In this document: positions 13,883 to 25,028 of the stretch, in pieces | Position numbering within the stretch: the first letter of the stretch is position 1 | How the letters are laid out: the number at the start of each line of letters is the position of its first letter | From: Rhizobium leguminosarum | Lineage (GTDB): Bacteria > Pseudomonadota > Alphaproteobacteria > Rhizobiales > Rhizobiaceae | Assembly: GCF_001652265.1 (NCBI RefSeq) | Contig: NZ_LWBS01000220.1 | Location: forward strand, 186,001-250,000 | Length of the DNA stretch: 64,000 bases | Direction of reading: 5' to 3' | Notes under the pieces: model-generated | The model's database searches: none | The model's input: the letters and a program-made list of their open reading frames with translations, nothing else | What the model was told of the DNA's origin: nothing | Made by a program: the position numbers and the translations under genes

Positions 13883-15121
13883 ATGTATGAATATGCCATA
13901 GCATGGGAATGGCTCGCCTTCGCGGCGCGTTGGTTCCATGTCATTACCGCGATCGCCTGGATCGGATCGTCCTTTTATTTTATCGCCCTCGATCTCGGAC
14001 TGGTGAAACGCCCGCATCTGCCGCCCGGCGCCTATGGCGAGGAATGGCAGGTTCATGGCGGCGGCTTCTACCATATCCAGAAATATCTGGTGGCGCCCGC
14101 CCAGATGCCGGAGCACCTGACCTGGTTCAAATACGAGAGCTATTTCACCTGGATTTCCGGTTTTTTGATGCTGTGCATCGTCTATTACGGAGGCGCCGAC
14201 CTCTTCCTGATCGACCGGCACGTGCTCGATATCAGCCCGCCCGTCGCCGTCCTGATCTCCCTGGCGTCGCTTGCCCTCGGCTGGATCATCTACGACCTGC
14301 TCTGCAAATCCCCGCTTGGGCGGAATACCTGGGGGCTGATGGCGGTGCTCTATGTCGTGCTCGTCTTCATGGCCTGGGGCTATACGCAGCTTTTCACCGG
14401 CCGTGCCGCCTTCCTGCATCTCGGCGCCTTCACCGCGACGATCATGTCTGCCAACGTCTTCATGATCATCATTCCGAACCAGAAGATCGTCGTCGCCGAC
14501 CTCATCGCCGGACGGGTTCCCGATCCCAAATATGGGCAGGTCGCCAAGCAGCGTTCGCTACACAATAACTACCTGACGCTACCCGTCATCTTCTTCATGC
14601 TGTCGAACCATTATCCGCTCTCCTTCGGTACGCAGTTCAATTGGGTGATCGCGGCCCTGGTCTTCCTGATGGGCGTCACCATCCGCCACTGGTTCAACAC
14701 GACGCATGCGAGGAAAGGCCGGCCGACCTGGACCTGGATCGTCACCGTCATCCTTTTCATCCTGATCATGTGGCTTTCGACCGTGCCGAAGCTGCTGACC
14801 GGCGAAACGGATACGGCGACGGTCGCGCCTGCCTTCCAGCAATTCGCCGGCGATCCACATTTCCCCGCCGTCAAGCAATTGGTCTCGACGCGCTGTTCCA
14901 TGTGCCACGCGGCCGAGCCGGTCTATGAGGGCATTGTGCGGCCGCCGAAGGGCGTGATGCTCGAAAACGACGCGGAAATCGCCGCCCATGCCCGCGAGAT
15001 CTATATACAGGCGGGCCGCAGCCATGCCATGCCGCCCGGCAACATCACCGACATCACGCCGGACGAGCGCAAGCTGCTGGTCGCCTGGTTCGAGAGCGCA
15101 GTCGAAGGCAAGAAACAATGA
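13883..15121 (+). CDS. puuD: Urate hydroxylase PuuD (membrane, cytochrome c domain)
   Basis: A 412-residue integral membrane urate oxidase converting urate to 5-hydroxyisourate. Residues 1-310 hold about eight or nine membrane segments with conserved His and Trp (WFHVITAIAWIGSSFYF near 17-33, KQRSLHNNYLTLPV near 222-235). The C-terminal 100 residues form a cytochrome c domain with the haem motif CSMCH near 335-339 and a distal Met in HAMPPGNIT. This type replaces the soluble urate oxidase in many Proteobacteria and passes electrons to the respiratory chain. GGGGAAC precedes the ATG. Its stop overlaps the guaD start (ATGA). Confidence 0.93.
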   Translation: MYEYAIAWEWLAFAARWFHVITAIAWIGSSFYFIALDLGLVKRPHLPPGAYGEEWQVHGGGFYHIQKYLVAPAQMPEHLTWFKYESYFTWISGFLMLCIVYYGGADLFLIDRHVLDISPPVAVLISLASLALGWIIYDLLCKSPLGRNTWGLMAVLYVVLVFMAWGYTQLFTGRAAFLHLGAFTATIMSANVFMIIIPNQKIVVADLIAGRVPDPKYGQVAKQRSLHNNYLTLPVIFFMLSNHYPLSFGTQFNWVIAALVFLMGVTIRHWFNTTHARKGRPTWTWIVTVILFILIMWLSTVPKLLTGETDTATVAPAFQQFAGDPHFPAVKQLVSTRCSMCHAAEPVYEGIVRPPKGVMLENDAEIAAHAREIYIQAGRSHAMPPGNITDITPDERKLLVAWFESAVEGKKQ

Positions 15122-16428
15122 CGACGACACTCCTGCGCGGCCGCCTGCTTTCCTTCCATCGCGCGCCGCTAAGCCTCGCCGACAGCCAAAGCTATCTCTA
15201 CGAGGAGGATGGCGGCCTGCTGATCGAGAATGGGCTGATCGCGGCAATCGGCGCCTATGCCGACGTCAAGGCAAAAGCAGCCGGGGACGCAGCCGAGATC
15301 GACCACCGCCCGCATCTCATCATGCCTGGCTTCATCGATATGCACCTGCATTTTCCGCAGATGCAGGTGATTGCCTCCTACGCCGCCAACCTGCTCGAAT
15401 GGCTGAATACCCATACCTTTCCCGAGGAATGCCGTTTCGTCGAAAGCGCGCATGCCGAAAGGATCGCCACGCATTTCTACGACGAGCTGATCCGCCATGG
15501 CACGACGACGGCGGTCGCTTATTGCTCCGTGCACAAGACCTCGGCCGACGCCTTCTTCGCCGAGGCGATGAAGCGCAATATGCGCATGGTCGGCGGCAAG
15601 GTAATGATGGACCGCAATGCCCCGCAGGGCCTGCTCGACACGCCCGAGATGGGCTATGACGAGACCCGCCAGGTGATATCGGACTGGCACGGCAAGGGCC
15701 GCAACCACGTCGCCATCACCCCGCGTTTTGCCATCACCTCGACACCGGCGCAGATGGAAGCGACATCAGCCCTTGCCCGCGAATTTCCCGACCTGCACAT
15801 CCAGACGCATCTTTCGGAAAATCACGACGAGATCAAATTCACCTGCGAGCTCTATCCCGACGCGATCGACTATACCGACATCTACGCCCGCTACGGCCTG
15901 CTCGGGCCGAAAAGCCTCTTCGGCCACGCCATCCACCTGTCCGAGCGCGAGGCCGATGTGATGAGCGAGGCGGGTGCCGTCGCCGTCCACTGCCCGACCT
16001 CGAACCTCTTCCTCGGCTCAGGCCTGTTTCCGCTGAAGGCGCTGGCGCGGCGGGAAAAGCCGGTCCGTATCGGCGTGGCGACCGATATCGGCGGCGGTTC
16101 CAGCTATTCGATGCTGCGGACGATGGACGAAGCCTACAAGATCCAGCAATTGCTCGGAGAACGGCTGAACCCGCTGGAAAGCTATTATCTGATGACGCGC
16201 GGCAATGCCGAGGCGCTGTCGCTGGCGGACCGGATCGGCACGCTGGAACCCGGCACCGAAGCCGATCTCGTCGTTCTCGATGCAACGGCGACACCGGCTA
16301 TGGCGCTGAAGATGGAAGTGGTGAAGACGCTGCCCGAGGAACTCTTCCTGCTGCAGACGATGGGTGACGACCGTGCGATCGCCGAGACCTATGTGGCCGG
16401 TGTTGCGTTGAAGGCGGGGCTTCGATGA
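15118..16428 (+). CDS. guaD: Guanine deaminase
   Basis: A 436-residue amidohydrolase that deaminates guanine to xanthine, feeding xanthine dehydrogenase. The zinc motif is DMHLHFPQ near residues 75-82, followed by the guanine-deaminase signature LEWLNTHTFPEE near 97-108. Later metal ligands appear in IQTHLSENHDEI near 227-238, GHAIHLSE near 269-276 and ATDIGGGSS near 320-328. It overlaps puuD by four bases and is translationally coupled to it. Full length for the family. Confidence 0.95.
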   Translation: MTTTLLRGRLLSFHRAPLSLADSQSYLYEEDGGLLIENGLIAAIGAYADVKAKAAGDAAEIDHRPHLIMPGFIDMHLHFPQMQVIASYAANLLEWLNTHTFPEECRFVESAHAERIATHFYDELIRHGTTTAVAYCSVHKTSADAFFAEAMKRNMRMVGGKVMMDRNAPQGLLDTPEMGYDETRQVISDWHGKGRNHVAITPRFAITSTPAQMEATSALAREFPDLHIQTHLSENHDEIKFTCELYPDAIDYTDIYARYGLLGPKSLFGHAIHLSEREADVMSEAGAVAVHCPTSNLFLGSGLFPLKALARREKPVRIGVATDIGGGSSYSMLRTMDEAYKIQQLLGERLNPLESYYLMTRGNAEALSLADRIGTLEPGTEADLVVLDATATPAMALKMEVVKTLPEELFLLQTMGDDRAIAETYVAGVALKAGLR

Positions 16429-16549
16429 CACGCCCTTTTACTCTCGAATTTGGACCGTGAAAGCAGCCCGGCACGGCCAATTTCCCATAACGCTCCTGCG
16501 AAATTCATGTTATGGCCGATGGCCGCATTCAGATGTGAAGGTTCAATTC

Positions 16550-17692
16550 GTGGCTACTCCGCTGACCATCGCCGACTTGAAAAAGCTCGCACAGCGCCGT
16601 GTGCCGAAGATGTTTTTCGACTATGCGGATTCAGGCGCCTGGACGGAATCGACCTATGCAGCCAACGAGAGCGATTTCAGCCAGATCAAGCTGCGCCAGC
16701 GGGTGATGGTCGATATGACCAACCGCACGCTGGCAACGACGATGATCGGCCAGAAAGTGTCGATGCCCGTGGCGCTGGCGCCAACCGGACTGACCGGCAT
16801 GCAGCATGCCGATGGCGAGATGCTGGCGGCACGTGCTGCCGAGGAATTCGGCGTTCCCTTCACGCTTTCGACGATGAGCATCTGCTCGATCGAGGACGTG
16901 GCTTCGGTGACGACGCGCCCCTTCTGGTTCCAGCTCTACGTGATGAGGGACAAGGATTTCGTCCTCAACCTCATCAACCGCGCCAAGGCGGCCGGATGCT
17001 CGGCGCTGGTGCTGACCGTCGATCTGCAGATCCTCGGCCAGCGGCATAAAGACCTGCGCAACGGCCTGTCGGCGCCGCCGAAATTCACCCCGAAACATGT
17101 CTGGCAGATGGCGACCCGGCCCTTCTGGTGCCTGGATATGCTGCAGACCAAGCGCCGCAGCTTCGGCAATATCGTCGGCCATGCGAAGAATGTCTCCAAT
17201 ATTGCCTCGCTCGCCGCTTGGACGCACGAGCAGTTCGACCCGCGGCTGTCCTGGGCCGATGTCGCCTGGATCAAGGAACAATGGGGCGGCCCGCTGATCA
17301 TCAAGGGCATACTCGATCCGGAGGATGCGAAGGCGGCCGTCGACACCGGCGCCGATGCGATCGTCGTTTCCAATCACGGAGGCCGCCAGCTTGACGGCGC
17401 CCCCTCCTCGATCAGCATGCTGCCGAAGATCGTCGACGCCGTCGGCGACCGCATCGAGGTCCATCTCGACGGCGGCATCCGCTCCGGCCAGGACGTGCTG
17501 AAGGCCGTGGCGCACGGTGCCAAGGGCACTTATATCGGCCGCCCCTTCCTTTACGGTCTCGGCGCCATGGGCAAGGAAGGCGTGTCGCTGGCGCTCTGCA
17601 TCATCCGCAAGGAGATGGACATCACCATGGCGCTCTGCGGCAAGCGCGACATTAATGACGTGAATTCGTCGATCATCGACGGGCGGCAGTAA
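16550..17692 (+). CDS. FMN-dependent 2-hydroxyacid oxidase/dehydrogenase (LldD-like)
   Basis: A 380-residue member of the glycolate oxidase / L-lactate dehydrogenase family, oxidising an L-2-hydroxy acid to the 2-oxo acid with FMN. The N-terminal DYADSGAWTE near 24-33, the catalytic SNHGGRQLDG near 270-279 (His base, Arg substrate clamp) and HLDGGIRSGQDVLKA near 302-316 are present. I chose the GTG at 16550 because GAAGG precedes it and typical rhizobial homologues begin ATPLTIADLKKL. An ATG at 16457 would add 31 unconserved residues. It follows guaD by 121 bp. The substrate (lactate, glycolate or other) is not settled by sequence. Confidence 0.88.
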   Translation: MATPLTIADLKKLAQRRVPKMFFDYADSGAWTESTYAANESDFSQIKLRQRVMVDMTNRTLATTMIGQKVSMPVALAPTGLTGMQHADGEMLAARAAEEFGVPFTLSTMSICSIEDVASVTTRPFWFQLYVMRDKDFVLNLINRAKAAGCSALVLTVDLQILGQRHKDLRNGLSAPPKFTPKHVWQMATRPFWCLDMLQTKRRSFGNIVGHAKNVSNIASLAAWTHEQFDPRLSWADVAWIKEQWGGPLIIKGILDPEDAKAAVDTGADAIVVSNHGGRQLDGAPSSISMLPKIVDAVGDRIEVHLDGGIRSGQDVLKAVAHGAKGTYIGRPFLYGLGAMGKEGVSLALCIIRKEMDITMALCGKRDINDVNSSIIDGRQ

Positions 17693-17812
17693 ACCTGCCG
17701 TCTGAGCGACGGACGCCGCTACGCGGTTCCCTCAATATCTCGATAATGGACGCTGCCTCATTCCGTCTAATGGCACGTTAAGCCTAGGTTGTATTTTTAG
17801 CGCCACCCCTTG

Positions 17813-17833
17813 AAAGCACAAAAGCGGTGCTTT
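17813..17833. promoter_or_regulatory. Hairpin just upstream of the TnpB-like/PspA frame
   Basis: AAAGCAC (17813-17819) and GTGCTTT (17827-17833) are perfect inverted arms around a 7-base loop. The hairpin ends 11 bases before the ATG at 17845 and would overlap the normal ribosome-site region. It could be a translational control element or, more speculatively, the remnant of a subterminal hairpin of an IS200/IS605-type element end. Confidence 0.45.
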
Positions 17834-17844
17834 ATGTTTTAGCT

Positions 17845-18981
17845 ATGGCTACCACAGGCAAGACACCGCATCCATCGCTGCTGCGCTACACGCTGGCGCC
17901 TGACGACAGTGCCCGGAAGGCGCTGGACGACACCATTGCCGCCTATCTCAGGATGATCGAAATCCTAACCGGCCTCGTCTCCGACAGGACGGGGGCCAAT
18001 CTCGTCGTGCTGCATGACCTTGCCTATGAAACCGTCCGCGGGCAGACGGGCTTGCCGGCAAGGCTGGTCACGCTCGGCCTTCGCGATTTCGCCGCCAATC
18101 GCGGCGTCACCGCCGATCCGCCGCATCTGCCGCTAGACGACAAGCTCTTCGCGATCAAAGGCCCCTCGGACCTGACGATCGCCACGGTGCACGGACGTGT
18201 TGCCGTGCCCTTCGATGTCGCGGGTTATTCACGGGGATGGGAGAGTATTTTTCCGGCCTACCTCGTTGCCGGCCAGGATCGCTACGAGATTCACATCGGC
18301 GTCACGCCGAATTCCGCTCGGATGGAGGAAAACATGACGAACGAAGGCATTCTCTCACGCATGGGCCGTCTGATTGCAGGCATCGCGAATGCGGCGATCG
18401 ACAAGGCGGAAGGCGTAAACAAGATCGCCGTCATCGAACAGGCGATCCGCGAGATCGATGCGGCAGCGGAAGACGCCCGCACCGATCTCGGCAAGGCGCG
18501 CGCGGAGGAATACCGCATCCAAAGCCGCCGGGACGAAATCGTCGAAGACATGAACGCGCTCGACGCCAAGATCCGCCTCGCCGTCTCGTCTCAGCGGGAC
18601 GACCTGGCAAAGGTAGGCGTTGCGCGCCAAATCGATCTCGAATCCCAGATCGCAGCGCTCGACAAGGCGCTGGCCGATGCCAGGGAACAGGTGGACGAAG
18701 GCCAGAAAGCCCTGCAGGCCGTGCTCGCCACGCGTCGCGAGGCGGATGCTCGCCTTGCCGATTTCAAGCGCAGCATCGCAAGGCATCCCGAACACGCCGC
18801 CGGCCAAAGCCAGCCCGCACCGGGTCCGGACGCCGCCCGCGCTGCCGCAGCGGTCTCGCGGCTGACCGGGGTTCCCGCCGGCGAGCATGCCCATAGTTCC
18901 GAACTGGACGAACTCGACCGGTTGCACCGCGAACAGGCGATCGAGGCGCGCCTCGCCCGCTTCAAAGCGGACAACCGGTAA
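17845..18981 (+). CDS. TnpB-like N-terminal module in frame with PspA/IM30
   Basis: One uninterrupted frame of 378 residues. Residues 164-378 are a PspA/IM30 coiled-coil protein (see the inner start at 18334). Residues 1-158 do not belong to PspA. They read like the WED/REC half of an IS605-family TnpB nuclease: a first strand SLLRYTL, a helix ALDDTIAAYLRMIEILT (26-42), the block LHDLAYETVRGQTGLPARL (56-74), then DKLFAIKG (99-106), TIATVHGRVAVPF (111-123), GYSRGW (127-132) and AYLVAGQDRYEIHIGV (138-153). In TnpB the RuvC-I domain with its catalytic Asp would follow exactly there; here PspA begins instead. The homology is by recognised motif order, not by search. There is no strong ribosome site before 17845, so the module may be translated weakly. 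Confidence 0.65.
   Translation: MATTGKTPHPSLLRYTLAPDDSARKALDDTIAAYLRMIEILTGLVSDRTGANLVVLHDLAYETVRGQTGLPARLVTLGLRDFAANRGVTADPPHLPLDDKLFAIKGPSDLTIATVHGRVAVPFDVAGYSRGWESIFPAYLVAGQDRYEIHIGVTPNSARMEENMTNEGILSRMGRLIAGIANAAIDKAEGVNKIAVIEQAIREIDAAAEDARTDLGKARAEEYRIQSRRDEIVEDMNALDAKIRLAVSSQRDDLAKVGVARQIDLESQIAALDKALADAREQVDEGQKALQAVLATRREADARLADFKRSIARHPEHAAGQSQPAPGPDAARAAAAVSRLTGVPAGEHAHSSELDELDRLHREQAIEARLARFKADNR
18334..18981 (+). CDS. pspA: PspA/IM30 family protein
   Basis: A 215-residue phage-shock-type protein, read from the ATG at 18334, which has an excellent ribosome site GGAGGAA 5 bases upstream. The beginning ILSRMGRLIAGIANAAIDKA is the membrane-binding amphipathic helix plus IM30 start. 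The long charged helices (residues about 25-145) form the coiled-coil hairpin that in this family polymerises on stressed inner membrane. The tail is Ala/Pro-rich and ends in a basic helix. The same frame is open upstream into a TnpB-like module, so both a 215- and a 378-residue product are possible. It is followed 5 bp later by yqiJ and then yqiK, a common PspA-flotillin grouping. Confidence 0.85.
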   Translation: MTNEGILSRMGRLIAGIANAAIDKAEGVNKIAVIEQAIREIDAAAEDARTDLGKARAEEYRIQSRRDEIVEDMNALDAKIRLAVSSQRDDLAKVGVARQIDLESQIAALDKALADAREQVDEGQKALQAVLATRREADARLADFKRSIARHPEHAAGQSQPAPGPDAARAAAAVSRLTGVPAGEHAHSSELDELDRLHREQAIEARLARFKADNR

Positions 18982-18986
18982 CGCCG

Positions 18987-19634
18987 ATGGAGCTCCTTTT
19001 CTCACCGGAATGTGCGCCCTTCGCCATCGCCGCAGCTATCCTTGTCGGCCTGACCGCGATCGAGATGCTCGCGATGGTCATGGGCTTTTCGATGACGGAA
19101 TTTCTGGGAAAGCCGGAGGTTCATGGCCATGACGGCATCCTGGCTTACCTTTCCTGGCTCAATCTCGGCGGTGTTCCCCTGCTGATTCTCATGATGCTGA
19201 CGCTTGGCTTCTTCGCGATGACGGGCTTTGCCTTGCAGGCCGTCGCCAACGCCTTCTGGGCGCCGCTGCCAAGCCTGATAGCCGTCATACCTGCCGCGCT
19301 GGCAACCATCCCCATGGTCAGGGCATCGAGCAGAACCGTGGCGCGTGTTGTACCGCACGACGAGACCTATGCGGTCGATCTCGACGCCTTGCTCGGCCGG
19401 ACCGCCGAGGTGTCGATCGGCCCGCTCGATCAGGGACTGCCGGGCCGCGTCCGCGTCAAGGATCAGCATGGAAACTGGCATGTGCTTCGAGCCCGAGCCG
19501 CCAAGGGCGAAGGTCCGCTCGCGATCGGCGCTTCGGTTCTTCTCGTTGACCACAAGTCAAATGTGTTTATCGCCATTCCCGCGCCGGTCGACCCCGCCGA
19601 TGCGGACAATCAATCTTTCAGGGAGCAGCAATGA
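18987..19634 (+). CDS. yqiJ: YqiJ-like inner-membrane OB-fold protein
   Basis: A 215-residue protein with about three or four hydrophobic segments in residues 10-110 (AIAAAILVGLTAIEMLAMVM; GGVPLLILMMLTLGFFAMTG; LPSLIAVIPAALATIPMV), then a soluble OB-fold/NfeD-like domain from about 120 to 205. This is the plan of YqiJ, which is encoded with flotillin-type YqiK in many Proteobacteria and is thought to work with it in membrane microdomain organisation. Its stop overlaps the yqiK start by four bases. Confidence 0.85.
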   Translation: MELLFSPECAPFAIAAAILVGLTAIEMLAMVMGFSMTEFLGKPEVHGHDGILAYLSWLNLGGVPLLILMMLTLGFFAMTGFALQAVANAFWAPLPSLIAVIPAALATIPMVRASSRTVARVVPHDETYAVDLDALLGRTAEVSIGPLDQGLPGRVRVKDQHGNWHVLRARAAKGEGPLAIGASVLLVDHKSNVFIAIPAPVDPADADNQSFREQQ

Positions 19635-21388
19635 TGTACGACGTTATTCTACCAGCCGGCATTGGGATTGTTCTGATCTTCGGTATCGGTTTTGTCCTCG
19701 CCTCTCTTTACACGCGCTCCAGCCGCGATGAGGCTTATGTGCGCACCGGTCTCGGCGGCCAGAAGGTCGTGCTCGACGGCGGTTCGGTCGTCCTGCCGAT
19801 CTTCCATTCGACCGCTCGGGTTAACCTGAAGACACTGCGGCTCGAGGTTCGCCGCGGCGAAGGCGATGCACTGATCACCAAGGACCGCATGCGCGTCGAT
19901 ATCGGCGCCGAGTTCTATGTACGCGTGAAGCCCGATGCCTCCTCGATTGCGCTTGCAGCTCAGACACTCGGCAACCGCACCAACGACGCCGAGGCTCTCC
20001 GCATCCTGATTGAGGCGAAATTCGTCGACGGCCTTCGCTCGGTGGCCGCGACGATGAATCTCGACGCGCTGCAGGAACAGCGCATGGATTTCGTCAAGGC
20101 CGTGCAGGAAGCTGTCGGCGCCGATCTTCAGTCGAACGGCCTCGAACTCGAATCCGTGTCGCTGACACGCCTCGACCAGACCGATATCAAGCATTTCAAC
20201 GCCAACAACTTCTTCGATGCGCAAGGCTTGGCCGCACTGACCCGCATCACCGAGGGACGCAAGAAGGAGCGAAACGAGATCGTTCGCGACACCGAAGTCG
20301 CCATCGCCCAGAAGGATCTCGAGGCCCGTCAGCAATCGCTGACCATCGAGCGGACCAAGCGGGAAGCCGAACTCAGCCAGGAACGGGACATCGCCAACAA
20401 ATCCGCGGCGACACGCGCCGAAACCGCGCAGCAGGAGCAGGCCGCAAAACGCGCCGAGGAGGAAGCCCGCATCGCTTCCGAACAGGCGATCGCCGAACGC
20501 GAGGCATCTGCCAAACAAGCTCGCGAAAGCGCCAACATCGACGCCGCCCGCGCCGTCCAGCAACGCGAAACCGAAGCCAAGCGTGACCTCCAGATCGTGG
20601 CACAGGAAAGCGCGATCGCCGTTGCCAACAAGAGCCGTGAAGAATCCGAGGCGAAGGCGGCTGCGGAAACGGCCCGTGCGCTGGCGATAGCAGCAGAAGA
20701 AAAGGTTGGCACCGCCAAGGCGATCGAGATTGCCGAACGCGAAAAGCAGATTGCCGTCATCGACGCACGCAAGAAAGCCGAGACGGAAGCGACTGCCGTC
20801 ACCGTCGGCGCCGAGGCCGAAAAACAGGCGGCAAGCGACCAGGCCGAGGCCATCAAGACGCTCGCGACCGCCGAGGCGGATGCGGCGATCATCAAGGCCA
20901 AGGGCATTCTCGAAACCGGCAAGGCCGCGGCCGAGAGCGAGGCATTGCTCAACGACGCTCGCAACAAGTTGAGCTCTGCTATCATCGAGTTCGAGATCAC
21001 CCGCGAACGTATCCGCATCATTCCGCAAGCACTCGCCGAAGCGGTCAAGCCGATCGAGAAAATCTCCGATATCAGGATATTCGACACCGGCGGCATGCTC
21101 GGCCGCGGAAATGGAGCGAACGGCGGAAACGGCATCGGGCTCGGCGAAGGACTGGCCAGCCAGCTCCTCTCCTACCAGGCGAACAAACCGATCCTCGACA
21201 AATTGCTGAAGGAAGCCGGCTTCGAGGGCGACGATGCCATCTCATCCCTCCTCGGAAATCTCGATGGCGCAAAACCGGCAAGACCGGCAACGCCACCTTC
21301 CGCCCCGGCAAAGCCTACAACGCCGACAGCAACTCCGACACAAACGATCATCCCTCCGGCGCCGAAGCCGGCACCGAAGAAGGACTGA
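19631..21388 (+). CDS. yqiK: Flotillin-family protein YqiK
   Basis: A 585-residue flotillin. A single N-terminal membrane segment (ILPAGIGIVLIFGIGFVLA, residues 6-24) is followed by an SPFH/band-7 domain to about 200, a very long Ala/Glu/Lys coiled coil (about 200-430), a C-terminal SPFH-associated part, and a Pro/Thr/Ala-rich tail (about 545-585). Flotillins form oligomeric membrane scaffolds. The gene is translationally coupled to yqiJ and lies in one operon with pspA, suggesting a shared role in inner-membrane integrity. A dispersed palindromic repeat follows the stop and could act as the 3' end of the transcript. Confidence 0.92.
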   Translation: MMYDVILPAGIGIVLIFGIGFVLASLYTRSSRDEAYVRTGLGGQKVVLDGGSVVLPIFHSTARVNLKTLRLEVRRGEGDALITKDRMRVDIGAEFYVRVKPDASSIALAAQTLGNRTNDAEALRILIEAKFVDGLRSVAATMNLDALQEQRMDFVKAVQEAVGADLQSNGLELESVSLTRLDQTDIKHFNANNFFDAQGLAALTRITEGRKKERNEIVRDTEVAIAQKDLEARQQSLTIERTKREAELSQERDIANKSAATRAETAQQEQAAKRAEEEARIASEQAIAEREASAKQARESANIDAARAVQQRETEAKRDLQIVAQESAIAVANKSREESEAKAAAETARALAIAAEEKVGTAKAIEIAEREKQIAVIDARKKAETEATAVTVGAEAEKQAASDQAEAIKTLATAEADAAIIKAKGILETGKAAAESEALLNDARNKLSSAIIEFEITRERIRIIPQALAEAVKPIEKISDIRIFDTGGMLGRGNGANGGNGIGLGEGLASQLLSYQANKPILDKLLKEAGFEGDDAISSLLGNLDGAKPARPATPPSAPAKPTTPTATPTQTIIPPAPKPAPKKD

Positions 21389-21410
21389 TCGCCGCGCAAG
21401 CGGGTCTGGA

Positions 21411-21526
21411 CTAGAACAGGATGATTTTAGGCCGGTTCGGCCTAAAATCTGAATCCGGTACTAAATTAAATAGTTAGAGCATGATGTCGCCCGAAAACCG
21501 CACACACTTTTCGGCATCATGCTCTA
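21411..21526 (+). repeat. Composite dispersed palindromic repeat, copy A
   Basis: Two adjacent palindromes: ATTTTAGGCCG / CGGCCTAAAAT (21424-21448) flanked by GAACAGGAT and GAATCC, then AGAGCATGATG / CATCATGCTCT (21476-21525) enclosing an inner CCGAAAA/TTTTCGG dyad. The same composite occurs in opposite orientation at 55018-55134. It fills the gap between convergent yqiK and the phosphoesterase gene. Confidence 0.75.
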
Positions 21527-22270
21527 TCTCACCCAACCCGTTGCCAGCGCTCCTGCCCAGTCGGCACGGCCCCTTTCGGCGGCCAGTGCCGACATCGCCA
21601 TATGGTCATAGGCGACGGTTCGGAACTGCGATGTCCATCCGGCTGCCATCTTTTCCAGAATGGCGTAGCTCGCCAGCGGATGACCGGCTTCCACCTTGTG
21701 GTAGTAGGGCAGCTCGTCGTCATAGGCCGGGCAGCCGACGCTGCCGGGATTGACAATGAGGCGGCCGTCGGAAAGCCGGACGGCGCGAGGGATGTGACTG
21801 TGACCGCAGAGGATCAGCGGCAGGTCGATGCCTTCGGCCAATGCCTCGATCGCTTCGATCGGCTTCAGGAAGACGAAGCCCTCCGGCGAGACCGATTCCA
21901 GCCAGTAGAGATTGTCGTCCTTCGGCGTCGCGTGACAAAGATAGACCTCGCCGCGATAGACGGTATCGAACGGCAGGCTTCGGATCCAACTAAGATGAGA
22001 CGACGACAATTGACCGTAGGCGGCCGCATCCGAAGCATGCATTGCCGCCGGGTCCTGTTCGATCAGGTAGCGGTCGTGATTGCCGCGGACCGACGTCAGC
22101 CCAAGCGGCATCAGCAAATCTGCCGTCCTGCCGGCTTCGAGCGGGCCGCTGAAGAAATCGCCGAGATTGACGATCTCCTTCTCCTCGATGCCTTGCGCGC
22201 GAATATCCGCCAGCACGGCCTCAAGCGCCAGATGGTTTCCGTGAATGTCGGCGATCGCTGCAAAACGCAT
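21524..22270 (-). CDS. Metallophosphoesterase (calcineurin-like, YfcE/MJ0936-type)
   Basis: A 248-residue calcineurin-fold phosphoesterase. The metal motifs are complete: DIHGNHLALEAV near residues 8-19 (DxH), NLGDFFSGP near 36-44 (GD), VRGNHDRY near 60-67 (GNHD), and CGHSHIPRAV near 158-167 (GHTH-type). Substrates are unknown; relatives act on phosphodiesters or nucleotides. It is the last gene of the puuE-uraD-HepT-like-allA-uraH operon, 2 bp after the uraH stop, which suggests a role in purine or nucleotide turnover. That link is inference from position only. Confidence 0.88.
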   Translation of the reverse strand: MRFAAIADIHGNHLALEAVLADIRAQGIEEKEIVNLGDFFSGPLEAGRTADLLMPLGLTSVRGNHDRYLIEQDPAAMHASDAAAYGQLSSSHLSWIRSLPFDTVYRGEVYLCHATPKDDNLYWLESVSPEGFVFLKPIEAIEALAEGIDLPLILCGHSHIPRAVRLSDGRLIVNPGSVGCPAYDDELPYYHKVEAGHPLASYAILEKMAAGWTSQFRTVAYDHMAMSALAAERGRADWAGALATGWVR

Positions 22271-22272
22271 TT

Positions 22273-22629
22273 TTAGCTGCCTCGGTAGGTGGAATAGCCA
22301 TAGGGCGATATCAGCAACGGCACATGGTAATGCGCCGTGACGTCGGCAATGCCGAAGCGGATCGGCACGAGATCGAGGAAGGAGGGATGCGGCAGCGGCG
22401 TGCCGCTGGCCCTCAGATAATCGCCGGCGTGGAAGACCAGTTCATAGGTGCCGGTCCGAAAATTTTCGCCAATGAGCATAGGACCACCGTCGACCCGGCC
22501 GTCGGCATTGGTCTCGACCGTCTTCAGATGCCTGCGGATCTCACCGTCGAGCTGGAAAAGATCGATCCTCAAGCCTTCGGCCGGCTTGCCGAGAGCGGTG
22601 TCGAGAACATGCGTGGTCAGTCCGGTCAT
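22273..22629 (-). CDS. uraH: 5-Hydroxyisourate hydrolase (transthyretin-like)
   Basis: A 118-residue UraH, opening the ring of 5-hydroxyisourate, the product of PuuD, to OHCU. The N-terminal [17 protein letters not shown] (residues 3-19) holds the catalytic His of the family. The invariant C-terminal signature is seen as [18 protein letters not shown] (101-118). Length is standard and there is no export signal. The start overlaps the allA stop by four bases. Confidence 0.95.
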
Positions 22630-23126
22630 GGGGCTGGCTCTTTGATGATATAAGGGGTTTCGAAGAAGTATTCTTCCAGATTATTGCCCGGCCCATCGCG
22701 GTCGACGACCAGGAAATTTGAAGCTTGGCCGAGCGCCATCAGCGGATGATGCCAGACGTTGCGGCGATAGTTCACCCCCTGGTCGCCGCGCGCCAGAAAC
22801 ACCTGCGGCCTGCCCGGGCGGCCGTTCTGGTCCTCGGAGACGACGACAAGAAACGGACGGTCCGAGACCGGCGAGAAACTCTGGCTGCCGAGGGGATGGC
22901 GCTCCATCATGGCGACTTCATAGGGGAAGCTGCGCGGCTGTCCACGAAAGAGGTTGATGATAACGCGTGCGCCCTCGCCCGTAGCCTCGGTAGCGGCCAG
23001 CGCATGGAAACGCTCCGTCGTACCGCCATTGATGAGCCGCATCGAGGCTGGATCGGCTTCGATCACCTCGCCGAAGGGGGCAAAGGCGGATCTCGTAAGC
23101 GGACGGACGTCGAGAAGCTCAGTCAA
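22626..23126 (-). CDS. allA: Ureidoglycolate lyase
   Basis: A 166-residue AllA cupin-fold enzyme that splits ureidoglycolate to glyoxylate and urea, the last step of allantoate breakdown. Recognisable blocks are [10 protein letters not shown] near residues 16-25, [13 protein letters not shown] near 32-44, [12 protein letters not shown] near 74-85 and [13 protein letters not shown] near 120-132. It starts 5 bp after the HepT-like gene's stop and overlaps uraH by four bases. Allantoicase or allantoate amidohydrolase, needed to make its substrate, is not in the window. Confidence 0.93.
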
Positions 23127-23131
23127 TTACC

Positions 23132-23494
23132 TTACTCGCCTTGGGCATGCCAATTGCGGACGCCATCGATCGCGGCAAGAAGCTCCGGCAGCGTGCGCTG
23201 CGTCGCCTCCCAGATTTCGGAGGGATCGAGATCGAAGACGTCGTCGAGGATACGGTTGCCCGTCCCGCAGATTTTCGTCCACGGCAAATCGGGATGCTCG
23301 GTTGCAAATGCCGGATATGTCACCAGCAGACGGGATGCCGCCACCCCGACGGTGAAATGGCAGAAGGCAACCGCCTTGAAGATCAGTTTATCCCCGGCGA
23401 ACGCCTCCCCATCCATTCCTCCGACAAAGAGCAGCGCATCGGATGCCGCCTCTTGCATATCGTTGAGATAATCGACAGCGCGCCGCTCGCTCAT
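23132..23494 (-). CDS. HepT-like (DUF86) protein lacking the toxin motif
   Basis: A 120-residue helical protein of the HepT/DUF86 type: a first helix VDYLNDMQEAASDALLF, a middle AFCHFTVGVAASRLL, HPDLPWTKICGTGNRILDDVFDL, and a final amphipathic helix. Active HepT toxins carry R-x4-H-x-Y in the block that usually reads like RNRLVHGYF. Here the same place is GNRILDDVF (residues 79-87), so the Arg, His and Tyr are all replaced. No MNT-type nucleotidyltransferase gene is adjacent. It overlaps uraD by four bases and sits inside the allantoin operon, which suggests it was recruited to another role or is carried passively. Confidence 0.7.
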   Translation of the reverse strand: MSERRAVDYLNDMQEAASDALLFVGGMDGEAFAGDKLIFKAVAFCHFTVGVAASRLLVTYPAFATEHPDLPWTKICGTGNRILDDVFDLDPSEIWEATQRTLPELLAAIDGVRNWHAQGE

Positions 23495-23991
23495 TCAGCC
23501 TCCGGAAGCATCGATGTGAGGCGCAGCAGCGCGATCTTTTCGACCTGCGCCGTTGCGGTCGCGAATTCCTCGTCCTGCCCGTTGCCGATGCGTGTTTCGA
23601 AGGCCGAGAGGATGTCGTCCTTGCCAAGTCCCTTGACGGCGATGATGAAGGGAAAGCCGAATTTTTCGACATAGGCCGAATTGAGTTCGGTGAAGCGGGC
23701 ATGTTCGGCCGGACTCAGGCGGTCGAGACCGGCGCCGGACTGCTCCTTCCTGCTGTCTTCGGTGAGTTCGCCCGATATCGCGAGGCGCCCGGCAAGGTCA
23801 GGATGGGCGCTGAGCACGCCGAGGCGCTCCTGCGGGCTTGCCGTGCGGAATACGGCGGCAAGGGCCGCATGCACGCCGGCCGCCGTCAGCGGCTCCGTCA
23901 CGTAGCCGGCGTCATAGGCGCGCTCGGCGATGAAAGGCGAATGTTCAAAGACGCCGCCAAAGCGGGAGACGAAATCCTCGCGCGACACCAT
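23491..23991 (-). CDS. uraD: OHCU decarboxylase
   Basis: A 166-residue 2-oxo-4-hydroxy-4-carboxy-5-ureidoimidazoline decarboxylase, making S-allantoin after UraH. The helical family blocks are present: FEHSPFIAERAY near residues 13-24, LSAHPDLAGRLA near 59-70 (with the catalytic His-Pro), and the substrate-gripping LNSAYVEKFGFPFIIAVKG near 103-121. I take the ATG at 23991, which overlaps the puuE stop in ATGA fashion. The frame stays open to 24024, but the extra residues are not family-like. It overlaps the HepT-like gene by four bases. Confidence 0.94.
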   Translation of the reverse strand: MVSREDFVSRFGGVFEHSPFIAERAYDAGYVTEPLTAAGVHAALAAVFRTASPQERLGVLSAHPDLAGRLAISGELTEDSRKEQSGAGLDRLSPAEHARFTELNSAYVEKFGFPFIIAVKGLGKDDILSAFETRIGNGQDEEFATATAQVEKIALLRLTSMLPEAE

Positions 23992-24914
23992 CAGAGCGCT
24001 TCCGGCTGATGGTGCTTGTGCCAATGCTCGGCAATCTCGATGCGGCGCGGAATCCAGACCTTATCGTGCTTCAGCACATATTCGATGAAGCGCTTCAGCG
24101 CTGCCGCCCGGCCGGGACGTCCGACGAGGCGGCAATGCAAGCCGACCGACATCATCTTCGGGCTGCCTGCCTTGCCTTCCTCATAAAGCGTATCGAAGGC
24201 ATCCTTCAAATACGTGAAGAACTGATCGCCGGCATTGAAGCCCTGCGGCGTCGCAAACCGCATGTCGTTGGTTTCGAGCGTATAGGGGATGATCAGGAAG
24301 GGTTTCCCGTCGACGCCCTTCACCCAATAGGGCAGGTCGTCGGCATAGGAATCGGAGGAATAGAGGAAACCACCCTCCTCCTGCACCAATCGAAGCGTAT
24401 TGTCGGAAGGCTTGCCCTGGTACATGCCGTAGGGCCGCTCGCCGGTGAGTTCGGTGTGCAGTCGGACGGCTTCGAGGATATGCTTGCGCTCCAGATCCTC
24501 GGGAAAATCCTTGTATTCCAGCCAACGGTAGCCGTGGCTGGCGATCTCCCAGCCGGCTTCCTTCATCGCGGCAACGGCCTCGGGATTGCGGGCCATCGCC
24601 AGCGTCACGCCGTAGACGGTCGCCTGCACCTTGAGATCGGTGAACATTCGCCAGAGCCGCCAGAAGCCGGCACGCGAACCATACTCGTAGATCGATTCCA
24701 TGTTGAGGTTGCGCTGTCCCGGCCAGGCGGCCGCGCCAACGATCTCCGATAGCAGGTTTTCGGAAGCCGCATCGCCGTCGAGTATCGAGCTTTCGCCGCC
24801 TTCCTCGTAGTTGATGACGAACTGCACGGCGATGCGTGCCTCGTCCGGCCATTTCGGATCGGGCGTCAGACGCCCGTAACCGACGAGATTGCGCGGATAA
24901 GTCTCGGATACCAT
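23991..24914 (-). CDS. puuE: Allantoinase PuuE (polysaccharide-deacetylase fold)
   Basis: A 307-residue cofactor-independent allantoinase of the NodB/polysaccharide-deacetylase fold, hydrolysing allantoin to allantoate. The family markers are YPRNLVGYGR near residues 5-14, QFVINYEEGGE near 28-38, SHGYRWLEYKDF near 125-136 and MMSVGLHCRLVGRPGR near 252-267. AGGTGAT precedes the ATG at 24914; a frame extension to 24950 lacks a ribosome site. It is the first gene of the six-gene unit ending with the phosphoesterase; its promoter should lie in 24915-25028. Confidence 0.94.
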   Translation of the reverse strand: MVSETYPRNLVGYGRLTPDPKWPDEARIAVQFVINYEEGGESSILDGDAASENLLSEIVGAAAWPGQRNLNMESIYEYGSRAGFWRLWRMFTDLKVQATVYGVTLAMARNPEAVAAMKEAGWEIASHGYRWLEYKDFPEDLERKHILEAVRLHTELTGERPYGMYQGKPSDNTLRLVQEEGGFLYSSDSYADDLPYWVKGVDGKPFLIIPYTLETNDMRFATPQGFNAGDQFFTYLKDAFDTLYEEGKAGSPKMMSVGLHCRLVGRPGRAAALKRFIEYVLKHDKVWIPRRIEIAEHWHKHHQPEAL

Positions 24915-25028
24915 CAAATCACCTTCTGAAAAGACGGGGAACGGTAGCATCCGCAGCCGGAATGTCGAGACGGAAACTGCTCGACCAGATTTTGTCTTTG
25001 CAGCGCAGGCCTTAGCTCATCGGCATCC

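Follow-up and report, generated by a model that had tools for sequence, protein, structure and literature searches.

The 64,000-nucleotide window of Rhizobium leguminosarum analysed here (NCBI RefSeq assembly GCF_001652265.1, contig NZ_LWBS01000220.1, positions 186,001 to 250,000 of the forward strand; all coordinates below are those of the window) holds an open reading frame (ORF) on its forward strand, 17845-18981, which runs for 378 codons without a stop and joins two proteins in frame. Residues 1-163 (17845..18333, +) are the recognition half of a TnpB, comprising its WED and REC regions and hereafter called the lobe, and the rest (18334..18981, +) is PspA/IM30, matched by the Pfam family PspA_IM30 at residues 168-293 of the ORF (E 7.5e-14, 52.3 bits against a cut-off of 33.9). 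We favour the start at 17845 over a GTG at 17827, since a promoter match at 17810-17838 would set the expected +1 near the ATG at 17845. A TnpB recognition half without RuvC is a conserved front end of PspA in rhizobia and their relatives.

The original prediction, made from the letters of the DNA, had read the upstream part as the N-terminal (WED/REC) half of TnpB, and the motifs it quoted are present within the frame. This reading passed sequence-profile, whole-genome and structure tests, which support residues 1-163 as a complete TnpB REC lobe (WED+REC) without the nuclease half. With the window protein alone, BLASTP against the TnpB of Mariprofundus ferrinatatus gives E 4e-7 at 26% identity over 114 columns, and identity between the lobe and the TnpB branch P0229-P0348 is 22-26% over 114-145 residues. 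A hidden Markov model (HMM) built from 109 of 120 fusions (11 were left out, their junction pattern unmatched or their N-terminal part short) matches 120/120 TnpBs of the branch, the best at 1.1e-10 and the weakest at 0.022 (for a search of 10,000 sequences), while the 120 reversed TnpBs give no match; in the reverse search, a profile of the TnpB branch finds 109/109 lobes and no reversed lobe. Comparison of profile with profile yields E 8.2e-10 for lobe against TnpB, and 1.7e-13 once divergent lobes are added. When the lobe profile alone was run against 398 whole genomes from the phylum, scoring no more than 9 candidates in each, 11 genomes gave a match: 9 lobes of this kind, the Mariprofundus TnpB (E 1.4e-11) and one weak match, L183 (E 3e-4), which we judged to be chance and whose ORF resembles a xanthine dehydrogenase subunit by eye. 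Among 17 genome-derived TnpB ORFs, the lobe HMM matched only that of Mariprofundus, and because the other TnpB branches go unmatched, the lobe seems to derive from a single one. Searches of Pfam and NCBIfam return no match for the lobe and recognise no TnpB family in the ORF; for the aligned members, no TnpB family is found among the 25 of 63 families shown, and PspA_IM30 is matched by 28/28. Searches of PDB sequences with the lobe returned 0 matches, and no TnpB was found elsewhere in its own genome.

The AlphaFold model of the lobe has a predicted local distance difference test score (pLDDT) of 85, and in a structure comparison TnpB, Cas12, TranC and Fanzor account for 50/50 among the matches listed. 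Its REC helices (17905..18099, +; residues 21-44, 53-68 and 72-85 in the AlphaFold secondary structure) can be set beside those at residues 13-40, 45-59 and 64-83 in a model of the TnpB P0229, which was used for the REC lobe only: its pLDDT is 68 overall, with a weak RuvC half, and 73-96 in ten-residue blocks up to residue 160. In these models the helices appear inserted between β1 and β2 of a WED barrel resembling an oligonucleotide/oligosaccharide-binding (OB) fold, with domain limits taken from PMC10097598. The join had been placed exactly where RuvC-I would begin, and there it falls: alignments of the lobe to P0229 stop at residues 166-177, and the RuvC-I motif GVDVG of P0229 occupies residues 178-182. 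The RuvC catalytic domain and zinc ribbon are absent from the ORF, the frame continuing into PspA.

How widespread is this fusion? The lobe alone, searched in 61 related genomes (its own included), was found in 20, each time within an open frame of at least 380 aa with 0 internal stops, and in the protein database 487 clusters match it at E <=0.001. Among named genomes, the fusion occurs in Rhizobium, Neorhizobium, Pararhizobium, Ensifer, Martelella, Bradyrhizobium and Enterovirga; it is plasmid-borne in Rhizobium, Agrobacterium, Shinella and Bosea; and the lobe persists in five or more families of the class (our f1, f26, f27, f30 and f124), mostly joined to PspA. Passage in frame from lobe to PspA is open in 84/84 loci, a count over good matches (the window, the best 80 of 128 candidates and three plasmid records). 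Together with the genome and cluster counts, this bears out the expectation that the 163 upstream codons are not open by chance, and the frequent stops and frameshifts by which upstream debris was to be recognised are not seen in these 84 loci. Relative to the window, the ratio of non-synonymous to synonymous substitution rates (dN/dS) has a median of 0.21 in the lobe (59 of the 83 pairs being usable), 0.12 in PspA (77 pairs) and 0.16 in the C-terminal tail (46 pairs), with pairs restricted to a dS of 0.05-1.5; because of this value of 0.21, the lobe is under purifying selection, somewhat weaker than that on PspA. In an alignment of 61/80 distinct lobes (<95% identity), to which L127 and L132 were re-added after missing the pattern, 34 columns are invariant.

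Three further sequences should be recorded here. P0060 and P0092, on a 4.9-Mb contig, form an apparent frameshifted copy of the fusion in pieces of 110 aa and 220 aa, the result of mutation or sequencing error. The match L022 in genome G004 (39% over 54 residues, E 9e-5) was judged to be chance, from its DNA alone. In Vitreoscilla filiformis, a 177-aa ORF (L136:3500-4033) lies directly upstream of PspA-YqiJ-flotillin, in frame and with a stop between; it looks unrelated by eye, and a split-gene ancestor of the fusion was rejected.

Two features go beyond the original prediction: a palindrome in the promoter and an internal Shine-Dalgarno sequence. The promoter scan found one match of sigma-70 type, TTGAAA-N17-TATGTT (17810..17838, +; 0.3 expected in shuffles), and between its -35 and -10 lies the palindrome AAAGCAC-N7-GTGCTTT (17813..17833), a putative operator. 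Because this promoter would place +1 about at the ATG, at or beside 17845, we infer a leaderless message. Across the 84 loci, CTTGAAAGCAC-N7-GTGCTTTA or a close variant precedes the start codon, with a -10-like box nearby and the ATG mostly 11-12 nt past the right arm; the arrangement of TTG plus palindrome is found in 84/84, by a pattern that was loosened after the sequences had been viewed. Over 102 loci (the 84 and 18 further ones, many closely related, so that the counts are not independent), the best 7-N7-7 inverted repeat is perfect in 75, carries a single mismatch in 24 and two mismatches in 3; the corresponding fractions in a shuffle control are 0.5%, 9.1% and 52.5%. A palindrome with at most one mismatch, or a clade variant, stands before the start in 99/102; in L110 and L121 the best repeat is not the operator, their operators being degenerate. 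Across the 61 genomes, the exact pattern occurs once per genome in 18 of the 20 fusion genomes, directly upstream of the fusion, and one genome without the fusion (G043) has one such palindrome. It is also found ahead of the plasmid-borne units in Bosea, Agrobacterium and Shinella. In L167, a separate CTTGAC-TATATT promoter immediately precedes the palindrome, an arrangement that fits a repressor site and not promoter boxes alone; a further half-site, GGTGCTTT, is present upstream of the operator at this locus.

The arms of the palindrome co-vary between clades. Divergent fusions occur in two additional families of the class, where the arms are AAAGGAT/GTCCTTT in L159 and L160, AAAGGAC/GTCCTTT in L164, AAAGGAT/ATCCTTT in L166 and L171, AAAGGAT/CTCCTTT in L172, AAAGTAT/GTACTTT in L161, and AAAGTAT/TTACTTT in L168 and L169, the site of L170 being degenerate. 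L181 has AAAACAC/GTGTTTT, and in L177 and L179 the arms match perfectly over 8 bp or more. Across 96 lobes, four columns separate those with GC operators (86) from those with GG/GT operators (10), and of these four only columns 73 (R or Q) and 105 (K or R) hold a single residue on each side. The window has R73 (codon 18061..18063, +) and K105 (codon 18157..18159, +), the residues that accompany GC half-sites, whilst Q73 and R105 accompany GG/GT half-sites. Out of 66 choices of two GC lobes among 12 divergent ones, the true pair gives four such columns and any other at most one. Locus L165 has a stand-alone lobe frame of about 160 codons, followed by YqiJ and flotillin (by eye) with no PspA between, the interval from lobe to YqiJ being the part of that genome read for PspA. 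Its palindrome is AAAGCAC-N7-GTGCTTT and its lobe carries R73 and K105, as the GC type suggests, although this comparison was not blind, the right arm having been partly visible earlier. In the lobe model, residue 73 sits at the start of the third REC helix and residue 105 between two WED strands, positions that, by our own alignment, would match TAM-reading elements of ISDra2 TnpB (TAM, target-adjacent motif). The ISDra2 TAM readers named in PMC10097598 are Y52, S56, K76, F77 and Q80 in REC and T123 and N124 in WED.

The internal Shine-Dalgarno sequence, GGAGG (18324..18328, +), lies 5 nt before the ATG of PspA at 18334. A word of this kind precedes that ATG in 84/84 loci, 83 of them strong, against 42.8 (38.4 strong) expected by synonymous recoding, and the residues encoded over it vary (MEEN, TEKK, PEEK, KEAS, REET) with the signal kept. 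It is present in 13/18 further loci; of the other five, the pattern missed four, and L165 lacks PspA at that place. Because of this conserved signal ahead of its own ATG, PspA is probably also translated from the internal start, as a separate product free of the lobe. Another contig of the same assembly, for which contamination is estimated at 5.4%, carries a second PspA_IM30 gene of the ordinary kind (G000:C437:8119-8787).

Behind the fusion stand the genes for a YqiJ-type OB-fold inner-membrane protein (18987..19634, +; Pfam YqiJ_N and YqiJ_OB) and a YqiK-type flotillin (19631..21388, +; Pfam Flot and Band_7), both of which were found downstream by tblastn in 83/83 loci. Clustering of the neighbours at 20 diverse loci recovered the three core genes in 16-18/20 only, antisense ORFs having displaced some. 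Among these 20 loci there is no other widely conserved neighbour, the next family (LysR-like by eye) occurring in 5, and neither a linked regulator nor a PspF-like gene is among the conserved neighbours. Within the 61 genomes, YqiJ occurs in the same 20 as the fusion, plus a weak case in G059; in G033 the YqiJ that follows the fusion is split into two pieces, of which one contains stops (G033:C5:345446-346065). The operon is placed within a gene cluster for purine/urate degradation (window 13883-17692 and 21524-24950, gene names taken from an annotated R. leguminosarum plasmid), and the units of Bosea, Agrobacterium and Shinella have neighbours other than this cluster.

In TnpB, the REC lobe is the part that grips the TAM DNA duplex. 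We read the ORF as a domesticated REC lobe, split from its RuvC half and fused to PspA, that is the first gene of a lobe-PspA/YqiJ/flotillin membrane-stress operon; homology, fold, conservation, the unit of three genes, the palindrome with its covarying arms and the internal Shine-Dalgarno sequence are computed results. In this operon the lobe could act as a guide-free autorepressor coupled to PspA as stress sensor, a proposal to which we give slightly better than even chances from the comparison of sequences. Two lobes, paired via PspA oligomers, would bind the palindrome overlapping the -35 and -10 and repress the operon; membrane damage would then recruit the PspA part to the membrane, the lobe would leave the DNA, and the operon would be switched on. 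The leaderless start would yield the repressor form and the strong internal ribosome site a lobe-free PspA effector, with no guide RNA involved. A broader claim, for which we see the balance as level, is that the lobe represents a new class of guide-free, sequence-specific DNA-binding domain derived from the TnpB REC lobe: TAM reading would have become operator reading, residues 73 (helix 3) and 105 (WED) would set specificity, PspA would be the membrane-stress sensor on the same chain, and RuvC and guide RNA would have been lost. The original prediction spoke of an RNA/DNA-binding module; of this, the DNA part may stand. Because the lobe has a net charge of -3 and no RuvC half to hold a guide RNA, RNA binding is disfavoured.

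Several points weigh against the autorepressor proposal. The median net charge of -3 compares with +11 for TnpB lobes, and TnpB acts as a monomer, according to PMC10097598, whereas a palindrome calls for a protein bound with two-fold symmetry. Neither G009 nor G033, both of them fusion genomes, has an exact match to the operator pattern, and a reversed control pattern has 17 matches in the 61 genomes, so that single matches are not rare. Covarying arms are also expected of an RNA hairpin, and a terminator scan flags the palindrome, with the tail ATGTTTTAGC. The lobe of L165, without an adjacent PspA, implies that sensing by PspA would not be the whole story. In a quick tree, L165 and L167 group together as sisters (support 0.85), so that the link between residues and operator may reflect only one or two evolutionary events; moreover, K/R at 105 is a conservative change, and in a whole-protein test with L167 alone seven columns follow the operator class, two of which (294 and 361) are in the PspA part.

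Could the lobe then be a protein-protein adapter, controlling PspA oligomers or docking YqiJ and flotillin, with the palindrome bound by an unlinked, ordinary transcription factor? We consider this possible, if rather unlikely. The negative charge of the lobe would suit an adapter, as would a YqiJ and flotillin that are always in the unit (83/83) and the chaperone-like CesT/Tir partner that, according to PMC11237479, is often found beside PspA in PspA operons. Against it stands an exact operator that occurs once per genome, only here, in 18 fusion genomes, that also precedes the Bosea, Agrobacterium and Shinella plasmid units, that changes symmetrically between clades, and that stays with the lobe in L165 where no PspA adjoins; so do the lack of a conserved linked regulator among the 20 diverse loci and the way in which residues 73 and 105 follow the operator class. 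If the palindrome were instead an RNA hairpin in a 5' leader, acting as an attenuator or a translational operator with or without the lobe bound to it, its covarying arms, its flag and tail in the terminator scan, and its position downstream of the -10 in L167 would all be natural. We nevertheless find this improbable: in the loci compared, a CTTG-type -35 and a TA-type -10 spaced 17-18 bp apart flank the palindrome, which would therefore precede the expected +1, and many clades lack a T-rich tail (by eye), grounds on which the terminator or attenuator reading was set aside for most loci.

More improbable again is a lobe that, while attached to PspA, still binds under the direction of a guide RNA supplied in trans. 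The complete WED+REC fold would allow it, and PMC10097598 counts WED as one of TnpB's two principal RNA-contacting parts, but the RuvC half, which shares the guide scaffold, is missing, and the net charge is -3. The 75 nt upstream hold, by eye, nothing beyond the promoter-operator in common across genera, the palindrome suits a guide-free dimer, and an Rfam scan of 16400-21500, the region near the gene, gave 0 matches, so that no omegaRNA is seen there in cis. As for an ancient TnpB remnant tolerated in front of pspA, or a leader ORF with an irrelevant product, both of which the original prediction had offered as alternatives, conservation refutes them as a general account and we give them almost no credence. 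That PspA owns a strong ribosome site might speak for them, as might the apparent frameshifted copy P0060/P0092; yet the open frame in 84/84 loci, the dN/dS of 0.21, the 34 invariant columns in 61 lobes, the confident fold, an operator tied to the start codon of the lobe and the stand-alone lobe of L165 all stand against them.

Set beside known systems, the lobe shares β1, three REC helices and the order of WED strands with the IS200/IS605-type TnpB of the Mariprofundus/Thermochromatium branch, although a small WED helix (P0229 134-142) is missing from its model. Unlike TnpB, it has no RuvC, no zinc ribbon and no guide RNA seen, is net negative, and is fused to PspA. On the PspA side, operons of PspA, flotillin and YqiJ with CesT/Tir partners have been described (PMC11237479); these have the same partners and an extra protein beside PspA, whereas here a TnpB lobe, joined in frame, takes the place of that protein. 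Among the PspA fusions which PMC11237479 names are repeats of PspA or fused paralogues, NlpC/P60 and PspAA, and the word "transposase" is absent from its main text; in the open-licence literature we found no report of TnpB fused to PspA, or of a TnpB-derived regulator lacking RuvC. TldRs are likewise TnpB descendants turned host regulators, as we infer for the lobe, and are linked to a non-transposon gene, but they are RNA-guided with a mutated RuvC domain (PMC13418256), whilst in the lobe RuvC is gone and not mutated, and regulation would be guide-free at one palindrome. TldR exaptations keep RuvC and guide RNA, and here the recognition lobe alone is kept; if it does bind the operator, then the lobe that reads the TAM, or the protospacer-adjacent motif (PAM), at the root of Cas12 can be an ordinary DNA-binding domain. 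In E. coli, PspA senses stress and restrains its own operon, sensing and DNA reading being the work of separate proteins. Compared with this PspA-PspF pair, the fusion would carry the DNA-reading part on PspA's own chain and, if our proposal is true, would represent a one-chain version of PspA control.
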